The translations under genes were made by a program, and so were the position numbers. Below are positions 19,421 through 56,318 of a stretch of 64,000 nucleotides of DNA, in pieces. The notes under the pieces were generated by a model. The model made no database searches and had not been told where the DNA came from. It saw nothing but the letters and a program-made list of their open reading frames with translations. The DNA comes from Synechococcus sp. M44_DOE_062 (GTDB lineage Bacteria; Cyanobacteriota; Cyanobacteriia; Thermostichales; Thermostichaceae). Numbering within the stretch: position 1 is the stretch's first letter; the number at the start of each line of letters is the position of its first letter. The stretch is taken from NCBI GenBank assembly GCA_015295985.1, contig DVDX01000060.1, positions 1 to 64,000 on the forward strand, read 5' to 3'.

Positions 19421-19515
19421 AGTGACATACTCCCGACGCTCACCCCTTATTGCTACGCAACGCTACGCGACGCGGACAGAGGGCGGGACTTCCCGGCGGG
19501 CTAGCTAACTACCTC
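19421..19515. mobile_element. possible IS200/IS605-type right-end relic carrying a hairpin repeat
   Basis: agtgacatactcccgacgctcacc...gagggcgggacttcccggcgggctagctaac resembles the 3' ends of cyanobacterial tnpB-type elements (from memory); contains ttgctacgcaacgctacgcgacgcg. No transposase ORF adjacent. Confidence 0.4.
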
Positions 19516-49560: not shown

Positions 49561-50343
49561 ATGGCTAACTACCCGATGCGAGGCCGTTCTTCTCCTGTTT
49601 CCGGCAGTTTTCCCCTGGGCACCTTGGTGGTGATGAGTGTCTCGGTTGGGGCTCTGGCCGCCTTGGGTTGGCAGTTGTGGCAGCTTGTTGCCCCGATGTT
49701 GGCTCCCCCTGCCCCGCCTCAATTTCCGCAGGCCGTGCGCTTGGATCCCTTGCCCAGCCCGGCAACTTTTCCCTCTCCCTTGCCTGGCCCTGCTGCAGGC
49801 ACTGTTGACCCTGAGGGGTTTCCCCCCGGCAGCCGCGGGCGGGTGATCGAGCCGATTGGCCTGGCAATCCGCAGCCAACCTTCCGCCGATGGAGCCTACC
49901 AAGGGGGAATTGTGGTGGGGGAAGTGGTGACGGTGTTGGAGTACAGCGCCGATGGTCGTTGGCAACGGGTGCGGCGGGAGTTGAACGGACAAGAGGGCTG
50001 GGTGCGTGCCGGCAATTTGGGCCCTGTAGACGGTGCTTCGGCCTCAACTGCTTCCAATCCCACTCGTGAATCTGCTCCTTCGCCAACTCAGTCCCCCGTC
50101 GCGTCAGCGTTGCAGAGCAATGTAACGACAGTGGTCTCTCCAGGTGAGCGGGGACGGGTGATCGAGCCCATCGGCCTGGCGCTGCGGGCCACTCCAGAGC
50201 GGGAGGGAACCTACATTGGCGGTGTGCCCATGAACGAGGTGGTGACGGTGCTGGGCCTCAGCGAGGATGGCCGCTGGCAGCGCATCCGCCGTCAGAATGG
50301 ACAGGAAGGTTGGGTACGGGCGGGGAATTTGGCGCAGGAGTAG
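49561..50343 (+). CDS. membrane-anchored protein with two SH3b domains
   Basis: Two similar units GRVIEPIGLAIRSQPSADGAYQGG..GRWQRVRRELNGQEGWVRAGNL and GRVIEPIGLALRATPEREGTYIGG..GRWQRIRRQNGQEGWVRAGNL. Confidence 0.82.
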   Translation: MANYPMRGRSSPVSGSFPLGTLVVMSVSVGALAALGWQLWQLVAPMLAPPAPPQFPQAVRLDPLPSPATFPSPLPGPAAGTVDPEGFPPGSRGRVIEPIGLAIRSQPSADGAYQGGIVVGEVVTVLEYSADGRWQRVRRELNGQEGWVRAGNLGPVDGASASTASNPTRESAPSPTQSPVASALQSNVTTVVSPGERGRVIEPIGLALRATPEREGTYIGGVPMNEVVTVLGLSEDGRWQRIRRQNGQEGWVRAGNLAQE

Positions 50344-50437: not shown

Positions 50438-50462
50438 GTTGCGTCAGCGTTGCGGAGCAATG
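50438..50462 (+). repeat. hairpin repeat gcgtcagcgTTGCggaGCAAtg
   Basis: ggttgcgtcagcgttgcggagcaatg; hairpin TTGC-GGA-GCAA. Confidence 0.8.
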
Positions 50463-51001: not shown

Positions 51002-51703
51002 ATGCACATCAGCGATGGCATTTTGCCGGCACCGCTTTGGCTGGGGGGCTATGGCATCACCGCTCTCATCACCGGCTACAGCTTGCGGCTTCTCCGTCAC
51101 GTCGGCGTTACGGAGCAATGTCCTTGGTGGGAAAGGGATCCCCGCTATATTGCTACGCAACGCTGTCGCGACCAGTTGCCCAAGGCGGCTTTGCTCACGG
51201 CTGTCTTTTTTGTGGCCTCTTCCATTCATCTGCCCTTTCCCCCGGCCAGCCTGCATCTGGTGCTGAATGGGTTGATGGGCCTGATGTTGGGGGCTTTGGC
51301 CTATCCGGCCATTGTGGTGGGCTTGTTTTTTCAGGTGGTGGCCTTTGGCCATGGGGGCCTGACCACGTTGGGCATCAACGCCGCCATCATGGGGATCCCG
51401 GCGCTCTTGGCCGGTGGGATTTTTCGGGCGGGCCGTCGGGTGATGGGGGCCGGGGTGTCTGCTTTCTTGGCGGGAGCGGTGGGGGTGGGGCTGGCGGTGC
51501 TGTTGTTTTACGGGGTGGTTATGGCTGCTGTGGTTGACGCCGACAGCGGGGTTCTGTCCCCAGAAGCCGGTCGCCTCGCTTTGGGTAGCTTGGTGGTGGC
51601 CCATCTCCCCCTGATGGTGGTGGAGGGGTTGTTCGCCAGTTGGGTGGTGCTGTTTTTGCAGCGGGTACAACCGGCGCTGCTGGGCGACTATGGCAAAAGA
51701 TGA
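51002..51703 (+). CDS. cbiM: cobalt ECF transporter S component CbiM
   Basis: MHISDGILPAPLWLGGYGITALITGYSLRLL, KAALLTAVFFVASSIHLPFPPASLHLVLNGLMGLMLG. Confidence 0.88.
   Translation: MHISDGILPAPLWLGGYGITALITGYSLRLLRHVGVTEQCPWWERDPRYIATQRCRDQLPKAALLTAVFFVASSIHLPFPPASLHLVLNGLMGLMLGALAYPAIVVGLFFQVVAFGHGGLTTLGINAAIMGIPALLAGGIFRAGRRVMGAGVSAFLAGAVGVGLAVLLFYGVVMAAVVDADSGVLSPEAGRLALGSLVVAHLPLMVVEGLFASWVVLFLQRVQPALLGDYGKR
51097..51176. repeat. two opposed hairpin repeats inside cbiM
   Basis: cacgtcggcgttacggagcaatg (forward) and tattgctacgcaacgctgtcgcgacc (reverse), both in the cbiM reading frame. Confidence 0.8.
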
Positions 51704-52544
51704 AGCTGGCTCAGGGATCCCTTGCTGCCGGCGCGGTCATCAATCCCATCCTGACCTCCCCAAACCCCCTTCCTGGCTCCACCGGTGGCAACCTCTGCCT
51801 AAGGTGCTGGGTCTGATGGCCCTGATGGCGGCTTTCGCTTCGGTGAGGAGCCTGACCCTCTTGCCCCTCATCTGGGCGCTGGTGGCCGGACTGTGGAGCC
51901 TGTCGGGATTGCCTTGCAGCCTTATTGCTCCGCAACGCTGTCGCGACGGGCTGAAACGGCTGGCAGCCCCAGGGCTGTTGGTGGCAGGGCTGATGGGGAT
52001 CCTTCCCTTCTGGGCGGGGGAAACCCTCCTGTGGCGCTGGGGATCCCTGGCTTTGCGCTGGGAGGGGCTGGAGATGGCGCTCCGCATAGGGGGGAGGGGG
52101 CTGGCCCTGTTCGCTCTCACCATGCTACTGCTGGAGACCACCCCCATGTTGGAACTGTTGGCAGCTTTGCGGCAACTGGGGATCCCAGACCTGCTTTTGG
52201 AACTGGCCTGGCTCACCCAGCGCTATCTGCAAGAGATGGCTGCTCAGTGGGAGCAGATGCAACGAGCAGCCCGGTTGAGGGGTTGGCGACCGCGGGGATC
52301 CCTGTGGCGTCCTGGGCCGGCTCTAAGACAAGATCTGCCCTTTCTGGCCGCTTCGGTGGGCACCCTGTTGGTTCGCAGCTACGAGCGCTCGCAGAGGGTT
52401 TATCAGGCTTTGCGCCTGCGAGGCTATGGACGGGCACCTCTGTTTCCGACGGCGGCTAGCAGGGATCCCTACAGTTGGGCGGCTACTGCGTTGGCCGTGG
52501 CTACGGCTGTATTGCTCCGCAACGCTGATGCGGCCCTCAACTAG
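51690..52544 (+). CDS. cbiQ: cobalt ECF transporter T component CbiQ
   Basis: Multi-TM ORF with LAWLTQRYLQEMAAQWEQMQRAARLRGWRPR (coupling-helix-like) and SYERSQRVYQALRLRGYGR. Confidence 0.85.
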   Translation: MAKDEAGSGIPCCRRGHQSHPDLPKPPSWLHRWQPLPKVLGLMALMAAFASVRSLTLLPLIWALVAGLWSLSGLPCSLIAPQRCRDGLKRLAAPGLLVAGLMGILPFWAGETLLWRWGSLALRWEGLEMALRIGGRGLALFALTMLLLETTPMLELLAALRQLGIPDLLLELAWLTQRYLQEMAAQWEQMQRAARLRGWRPRGSLWRPGPALRQDLPFLAASVGTLLVRSYERSQRVYQALRLRGYGRAPLFPTAASRDPYSWAATALAVATAVLLRNADAALN

Positions 52545-54060: not shown

Positions 54061-54831
54061 ATGACTACCCTTCGCGGCAGTGGGACGGAGTCTTTGGATG
54101 AGCTAAAACAGGCGGCAGCCCGAGCCGCCGTTCAAAAGGTGCAGTCGGGGATGGTGGTGGGGCTGGGCACGGGATCCACAGCCGCCTTTGCTGTCAGCGC
54201 CCTAGCGGAGCGGATGCAAACCGAAGGTCTGCAGATTGTCGGTGTGCCTACCTCGGAGCGCACGGCTGAACAGGCCCGCTCCCTGGGGATCCCACTGGCT
54301 ACCCTGGAGGAGCAGCCCCGCCTGGATCTGGCCATCGATGGGGCCGACGAAATCGAAGTGGGATCCCTAAACCTGATCAAAGGGGCCGGAGGAGCTCTGT
54401 TGCGGGAAAAATTGGTGGAGGCCAGCGCCGCCGAGCTGATCATCGTTGCCGATGCCTCTAAAAAAGTTGCGCAGTTGGGCACCCGCTTTCCCGTGCCTGT
54501 GGAAGTGGTGCGGTTTGGCTGGAAAACCACCTTGGCCCGGGTGGAGGCCATTGGCTGTGCAGCCACGCTGCGGTTGAATGCCCAAGGGGATCCCTACCTG
54601 ACGGATGAGCAGCACTACATCCTCGATTGCCAATTCGGCCCTATGGCGGATCCCGCTAAGATTGCCGATCAACTAAAAGGGACGGTGGGGGTTGTGGAAC
54701 ATGGCCTGTTCATCGGTATGGCCAAAGAGGCAATCATCGCGCTCCCGTCGCGACAGCGGGACGGAGTCCTTACTAGGATCGAAACGCTGCAACCAGGCTG
54801 TGAGGAGAGAGGAGTGAGGAGAGAGAAGTGA
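54061..54831 (+). CDS. rpiA: ribose-5-phosphate isomerase A
   Basis: VGLGTGSTAAFAVSALAERM, LDLAIDGADEIEVGSLNLIKGAGGALLREKLVE. C-terminus runs through a hairpin repeat and a purine tract. Confidence 0.93.
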   Translation: MTTLRGSGTESLDELKQAAARAAVQKVQSGMVVGLGTGSTAAFAVSALAERMQTEGLQIVGVPTSERTAEQARSLGIPLATLEEQPRLDLAIDGADEIEVGSLNLIKGAGGALLREKLVEASAAELIIVADASKKVAQLGTRFPVPVEVVRFGWKTTLARVEAIGCAATLRLNAQGDPYLTDEQHYILDCQFGPMADPAKIADQLKGTVGVVEHGLFIGMAKEAIIALPSRQRDGVLTRIETLQPGCEERGVRREK

Positions 54832-54932: not shown

Positions 54933-56318
54933 ATGCTGACCCTACAAACTGTGGCCGACCTGCTGCAAACTCCCCTGCAGGGGGATCCCCATTTGCTGCG
55001 GTTTCCCATTCGGGCCATTTGCACCGACAGCCGCCAATTGCAGCCAGGCTCGGTCTTCGTGGCGCTGCGGGGGGAACGGTTTGATGGACATGACTTCATT
55101 CCGCAAGCCTTGGCCAGAGGGGCTGTTGCCGTCATCAGCCAGCGTCCGGTGGCCGGGCCCCATTTTCAAGTCTCAGATACCTTAGCTGCCTACCAGCGCA
55201 TTGCCAGAGGCTGGCGGGAGCAGTTTTCCCCCCCTGTAGTGGCCATCACGGGCTCAGCAGGCAAAACCACCACCAAAGAAATGCTGGCGGCTGCCCTGTC
55301 CCGCTACGGCACAGTTCTCAAAACAGAAGCCAACCACAACAACGACATCGGGGTTGCTCAAACACTGCTCCAGATGCAACCGGAGCATCAGTTTGTGGTT
55401 CTGGAAATGGCCATGCGCGGCCCTGGAGAAATTCGCCGACTGGCTCAGATGGCTCAACCCACCCACGCCTTGATCACCCATATCGGTACCGCCCACATTG
55501 GCAGACTGGGATCCCGTGCGGCCATTGCCGCCGCCAAGTGCGAGCTGCTGCAAGAGCTAGGACAAGGGGTGGCTCTGCTCAATGGAGAAGATCCCTTGCT
55601 GTTGTCCACCGCCGCCAGCCTGTGGTCGGGACAAACCCTCACCTATCGCGTTAGCGGGACGGAGTCCCATGGCCTGGAAAGTGCTCCGCACCGCTACCGC
55701 GATCGGGGGAACTTACGAGGAGAATGGGATCCCCAAGCCCAAACGGTAACCGTGGAGGGCCTAACGCTACCTGTGCCTCTGCCTGGAAGGCATCATGCCC
55801 TCAACTGGATGGGGGTGCTGGCTGCTTTGCGCAGCTTGGGGCTGGATTGGGAGCGGCTCCGAGAACCCATCGCCTTGCCCACCCATCTGGAGGGGCGCAA
55901 CCGCCATCTCAAACTGGCGGGAGATGTGGAAATCTGGGATGAAACCTACAATGCCTCGCCGGAAGCGATGATTGCAGCTCTGCACCTGTTGGCTCAAACT
56001 CCGGGGAAACGGCGCTGGGCCATTCTCGGCCCGATGCGGGAATTGGGAGAGCATGCACCTCAACTCTATGCGGAGGTGGGTCGGGCGGCTGCCCCTTTGG
56101 GGCTGGATCGGGTCTTGCTCTTGGATCCGGAAGGGGAGATGCAACCGCTGCTCGACCAAAAACCGGCAGCCCAGGCAGAACGCTGCGAGGATGTATCGGA
56201 ACTGCTGGAAGTCTTGCTGCATCAGGTACAAGCCGGGGATCGGCTGCTGTTCAAAGCAGCACGGGCTGTCGAGCTGGAGCGGGTGCTGCGCCGCTTTTTG
56301 CAGGAGTGGCAGGCATAG
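54933..56318 (+). CDS. murF: UDP-N-acetylmuramoyl-tripeptide--D-alanyl-D-alanine ligase
   Basis: ITGSAGKTTTKEMLAAALS, TEANHNNDIGVAQTLLQ, DETYNASPEAMIAALHLLA. Confidence 0.94.
   Translation: MLTLQTVADLLQTPLQGDPHLLRFPIRAICTDSRQLQPGSVFVALRGERFDGHDFIPQALARGAVAVISQRPVAGPHFQVSDTLAAYQRIARGWREQFSPPVVAITGSAGKTTTKEMLAAALSRYGTVLKTEANHNNDIGVAQTLLQMQPEHQFVVLEMAMRGPGEIRRLAQMAQPTHALITHIGTAHIGRLGSRAAIAAAKCELLQELGQGVALLNGEDPLLLSTAASLWSGQTLTYRVSGTESHGLESAPHRYRDRGNLRGEWDPQAQTVTVEGLTLPVPLPGRHHALNWMGVLAALRSLGLDWERLREPIALPTHLEGRNRHLKLAGDVEIWDETYNASPEAMIAALHLLAQTPGKRRWAILGPMRELGEHAPQLYAEVGRAAAPLGLDRVLLLDPEGEMQPLLDQKPAAQAERCEDVSELLEVLLHQVQAGDRLLFKAARAVELERVLRRFLQEWQA

Follow-up and report, generated by a model that had tools for sequence, protein, structure and literature searches.

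The two opposed repeats in the cobalt transporter gene cbiM of a hot-spring Synechococcus genome (G000) are best explained, with high probability, by a 24-nt mobile hairpin unit that inserted twice, independently, and that is of the same kind as the small dispersed repeats (SDRs) of cyanobacteria. The cbiM case is one among hundreds, and thus it is the mobile unit, rather than CbiM, that needs explaining. The locus lies in the window, by which we mean the whole 64-kb stretch of DNA that was analyzed, and has these features:

51002–51703, + strand: cbiM, substrate-specific subunit of a cobalt ECF transporter, 233 amino acids, identified by Pfam and fold; the open reading frame (ORF) is intact around the inserts
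51096–51119, + strand: unit copy 1 in cbiM, GTCACGTCGGCGTTACGGAGCAAT, residues 32–40, decayed relative to the sister species
51149–51172, − strand: unit copy 2 in cbiM, GTCGCGACAGCGTTGCGTAGCAAT, residues 50–57, same sequence in the sister species (G002)

The ORF product is CbiM (Pfam PF01891, E = 1.7e-42). Its predicted fold matches 5x3x and 4m5b in Foldseek (TM up to 0.80), H2 and H85 are invariant across 30 sequences, and the N-terminal MHISDG motif is present. The two copies form an opposed pair with 24-nt arms that are 79% complementary and spaced 29 nt apart. Both are in frame, and HVGVTEQC and (Y)IATQRCRD are indeed their translations, as a preliminary description of this DNA had read them. 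That description proposed that two hairpin repeats had been inserted in frame between transmembrane (TM) helices, adding a hydrophilic loop of about 25 to 30 residues. The position and the frame hold: the units are absent in four genus mates, and the AlphaFold model (AF2) places them between TM1 and TM2, with helices at residues 10–37 and 50–74 and a low-confidence segment between (residues 37–49, pLDDT of about 50). Copy 1 spans the end of TM1 and this loop, and copy 2 is the start of TM2. The size does not hold, since alignment with homologues lacking the units defines an insert of 51 nt relative to G001 (24 + 24 + 3), or 17 residues. What was added is two 24-nt units and one codon; the CPWWERDP between the copies is not part of the repeat.

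The preliminary description had also named what would speak against an insertion, namely homologues without the repeats but with a related loop of similar length. In relatives without the units, the loop is shorter and its sequence unrelated, so no such case was found. From SLR to QLP, the TM1–TM2 loop has 28 residues here versus 9 to 16 in unit-free genus mates, and distant CbiM proteins have even shorter ones. Both copies are common to G000 and G002 and missing from G001, G003, G004, and G005, with cbiM in the same surroundings in all five other genus genomes. Copy 2 is a clean 24-nt insertion relative to these relatives. Copy 1 lies in a divergent loop and aligns with 3 nt of difference beyond its 24 nt, so its empty site is the less clean of the two. 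Both copies are older than the G000/G002 split, so the order in which they arrived, and the reading as gains here instead of losses in four relatives, are a matter of parsimony.

That both copies persist in two species, and that another opposed pair sits in one ORF (55645–55703), might be taken to mean that the cbiM pair is a recruited functional element, either an RNA hairpin or a protein loop selected for cobalt transport. We consider this very unlikely. Between G000 and G002, copy 1 carries four nonsynonymous and no synonymous differences, compared with 7 and 31 in the remainder of cbiM (P = 0.003), and the G000 differences disrupt one stem pair. The CbiM proteins of four genus mates, like more distant ones, do without the units, and the modeled loop is of low confidence. 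The substitution check that had been suggested for the insert therefore favors relaxed constraint over recruited function, and the loop looks tolerated rather than selected.

Further units occur in the same window:

50098–50121, + strand: unit within the gene of an SH3-domain protein (VASALQSNV), missing in aligned relatives
50438–50461, + strand: unit lying upstream of cbiM and not within any called gene; site empty in G002
51690–52544, + strand: cbiQ, T component, with its own species-specific unit
51924–51947, − strand: unit inside cbiQ (LIAPQRCRD), a clean 24-nt insertion missing in all five genus mates
52511–52534, − strand: unit at the 3′ end of cbiQ (VLLRNADAALN*), also in G002
54747–54770, + strand: in-frame GGGAC-class unit close to the C-terminus of a putative rpiA ORF (PSRQRDGVL), empty in G002
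55645–55668, + strand: GGGAC-class unit, the first member of an inverted pair within a single ORF; site empty in G002
55680–55703, − strand: GGTGC-class unit, second of that inverted pair, empty in G002

The opposed pair at 55645–55703 is species-specific and joins two stem classes with about 10 nt of host DNA between them. Elsewhere in the window (19436–19500), a GTTGC-class unit sits in the middle of an IS200/IS605-type right-end remnant (CCCGCCCTCTGTCCG ... GGGAGTATGTCAC), and unit nests in IS605-type right-end remnants recur in G000 and G002.

The unit consensus is N, TCGCGNYAGC, five stem bases, a loop of GGA or GTA, and five complementary bases. A free base followed by TCGCG opens the unit, the closing base is variable, and the unit ends with the stem. 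Stem classes with compensatory changes are GTTGC, GGGAC, GGTGC, GGGCC, GGCGC, GTCGC, and GTGCC. When units were chosen by their 5′ part alone in 858 kb, 117 of 162 had all five stem positions paired (G-T counted). Stem pairs 12–22, 13–21, and 14–20 lay far above every shuffle, with 13–21 paired in 193 of 238 units versus a shuffle maximum of 124; a G11–T23 closing pair is present in 129 of 238 distinct units. A second class, TTCCCGYYAGGGTGCCGTAGGCAT (class B), has C3–G10 instead of the G3–C10 of the main class, and its units sit inside main-class units, in their GCGG^AGC loops. Four class-B units lie exactly in the GG^A loop of a resident main-class unit (G000:C10 at 98333 and 122833, and C12 at 84951 and 104283, in sample coordinates).

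A 17-nt core of the unit matches 14 times in the 64-kb window versus 0.22 expected. Genome-wide, when up to two mismatches are allowed, it matches 134 times versus 0 for a reversed control. Our unit finder returned 190 units in 858 kb of G000 and none in dinucleotide shuffles, a count that extrapolates to several hundred units per genome. The G000 draft assembly comprises 90 contigs, and several of them break inside unit arrays (among them tandem 24-nt arrays at the G000:C40 and G000:C22 ends), so the draft probably undercounts arrays. Contigs ending in arrays could invite the suspicion of coincidental repeats, assembly error, or local slippage. The probability of this is negligible, given the absence of units from shuffles, their dispersed rather than local distribution, and the same cbiM units in the complete genome of G002 (95% protein identity); the genome comparisons refute it.

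Mobility of the unit was recognizable without consulting the repeat itself. In an indel census of G000 against its sister species G002 (257 kb at 91% identity; G002 is one contig of 3,046,682 bp, and G001 comprises 2,932,766 bp), 17 indels were exactly 24 nt long, compared with 0 to 3 at each length from 19 to 23 and from 25 to 30 nt. The majority of the 24-nt inserts are units. Clean empty orthologous sites number 52 (37 in G002, 15 in G000) and represent 45 distinct sites; the clean insertions are single units rather than inverted doublets. The target read from these 45 sites is CYG^A, with no target duplication: C at −3 in 30 of 45, C or T at −2 in 37, G at −1 in 23, and A at +1 in 35 (P = 1e-16). 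The +1 base is retained in only 22 of 45 sites, versus 118 of 135 at +2 to +4 (P = 4e-7), and thus about half of the cases are 25 nt replacing one. Some boundaries can be read two ways, as 24 nt with an adjacent substitution or as 25 nt replacing 1. Insertion ahead of a resident unit that starts with A accounts for some of the 24-nt tandem arrays. The mobility step itself we infer from these genome comparisons.

Several candidate determinants of insertion or carriage were rejected. Hairpin loops are not favored targets, as 24 of 45 junctions fell in a predicted loop versus a fraction of 0.486 at control sites. The dominant octamer GGGATCCC was the insertion site at 0 of 45 empty sites. Phage carriage was likewise dismissed: 98 stretches in a viral collection fit the pattern, just one with a fully paired stem, which is the chance level. 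As for larger elements bounded by units, some flanks are shared, many are overlapping neighbors or relatives of IS605-type ends, and no single carrier emerged. Unit orientation showed no clear pattern relative to replication in 1.2 Mb of G002.

Called genes make up 82% of the sample but hold 83 of 190 units in G000 and 97 of 200 in G002; insertions in genes are therefore thinned yet common. Since 24 is divisible by three and many unit frames lack stop codons, an insertion in a gene would add eight residues. Preservation of the frame needs no special cause, since the unit always adds a net 24 nt, at intergenic sites too, and it is thus a property of unit length. Insertions in tolerant loops, such as the TM1–TM2 loop of CbiM, would survive and may then decay like ordinary coding sequence. 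In-gene units are mainly sense (59:24 in G000 and 79:18 in G002), a bias exceeding the 1.17-fold surplus of CYGA that the sense strand itself carries, and it is weaker among the most recent insertions (12:6).

Cyanobacterial SDRs are reportedly 21 to 27 nt long (Elhai et al. 2008). The unit shares their dispersed length of about 24 nt (a net 24 nt at clean sites), their hairpin with compensatory changes, and the recent mobility seen in empty orthologous sites. Strict-pattern counts within the genus are 206 (G000), 60 (G001), 249 (G002), 36 (G003), 9 (G004), and 100 (G005). In a scan of the phylum, 29 of 292 genomes match, with one to sixteen copies outside the genus, and sampled units elsewhere in cyanobacteria have the same 24-nt form. 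Three units read in G251 lie in GCG^ATCGC (full HIP1) twice and in CCG^ATCGC (CCGATCGC) once; in Nostoc-like genomes, the loop of a GGTTGGGTTG...AACCCAAC repeat hosts many of the units. SDR5 also inserts precisely, between HIP1 nucleotides 3 and 4 (GCG^ATCGC; PMC4390886), a position that fits the G^A rule of the unit. Because G251 units occupy HIP1 at the SDR5 position, we would file the unit as an SDR in kind, set beside SDR5 by insertion place and description rather than by the SDR5 consensus. There are differences from SDR5: none of the 45 G000/G002 empty sites is HIP1 or the dominant octamer, the Thermostichus-like units are far more numerous than those in the sampled other cyanobacteria, and nearly half of them lie in genes, with the A often replaced. 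The window itself contains 100 copies of GGGATCCC and 0 of HIP1 (GCGATCGC), a pattern reported for JA strains (PMC4390886). What is new here is the large family in Thermostichus-like genomes, its target rule, its use within genes, and the lack of a detectable reverse transcriptase.

To our knowledge, the way in which repeats of this size (about 24 nt) move has been an open question since 2008, and we know of almost nothing that moves in pieces as small as this. Elhai et al. 2008 reportedly proposed that SDRs spread via an RNA intermediate and reverse transcriptase. The strongly conserved hairpin, its G-U-compatible closing pairs, and the mainly sense orientation of in-gene units would suit that route. 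However, none of the six genus genomes gave a match to the reverse transcriptase model RVT_1 (PF00078), which does fire in control genomes, even though insertions separate these species. This speaks against a present-day RNA intermediate, as does the weaker sense bias of the latest insertions. The enzyme could have been lost earlier or supplied from outside; overall, we regard the RNA route as improbable.

A second possibility is that an IS200/IS605 (HUH Y1) transposase mobilizes the units in trans, as RAYTs do for REP/REPIN. A short imperfect hairpin and the lack of target duplication suit single-stranded DNA transposition, PF01797 hits are present in all six genomes, and units nest in the right ends of IS605-type remnants. 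Nevertheless, the Y1 hits of G000 are interrupted or fragmentary, and hits do not track units (19 hits and 60 strict units in G001 versus 2 hits and 249 in G002). The units have a single hairpin, lack paired left and right ends, and carry neither a GTAG nor a CGTC tag, and the target is CYG^A rather than a fixed tetranucleotide. This makes the Y1 explanation doubtful, if far from negligible.

The mobilizer is most likely a hairpin-recognizing DNA enzyme acting in trans. Such an enzyme, probably working on single-stranded DNA, would copy the unit to new sites: a single unit would enter CYG^A without target duplication, often exchanging the A for 25 nt, with a net gain of 24 nt. In its full form, an undescribed DNA-only machinery that uses no reverse transcriptase, recognizes a single 24-nt hairpin, and replaces the A of CYGA by 25 nt, we put this forward tentatively and with less than even confidence.

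Other known systems resemble the unit in part. REP/REPIN sequences are also high-copy hairpins of about 20 nt, with opposed doublets in REPINs (PMC3116915). But they bear a GTAG or CGTC end tag (PMC3733652) that the units lack, the REPIN moves as an inverted doublet whereas the units here move as singlets, and REPs are mainly extragenic, which these units are not. Of the Y1 transposase associated with REP/RAYT, G000 has interrupted or fragmentary hits and G002 one intact hit. IS200/IS605 elements and their miniature derivatives likewise make no target duplication, and their remnants serve as nests for units, but the 24-nt unit is without their two-ended architecture. Rickettsia palindromic elements are likewise hairpin repeats that have entered unrelated protein genes in frame (PMC10969869, PMC3733652), as are the many units in called genes here; they are about 150 bp long (PMC10969869), compared with 24 nt.

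If the DNA-only machinery is real, the unit would rank with the smallest pieces of DNA that move, adding eight residues to proteins at hundreds of sites in each genome. The idea of an RNA intermediate becomes testable in this clade: units number in the hundreds, their length is exact and their target follows a rule, complete genomes of close relatives are at hand, and a reverse transcriptase has not been detected. The units naturally supply proteins with small in-frame insertions, similar to the Rickettsia elements but much smaller: with exactly 24 nt added at each landing, eight amino acids can enter a protein without breaking it.
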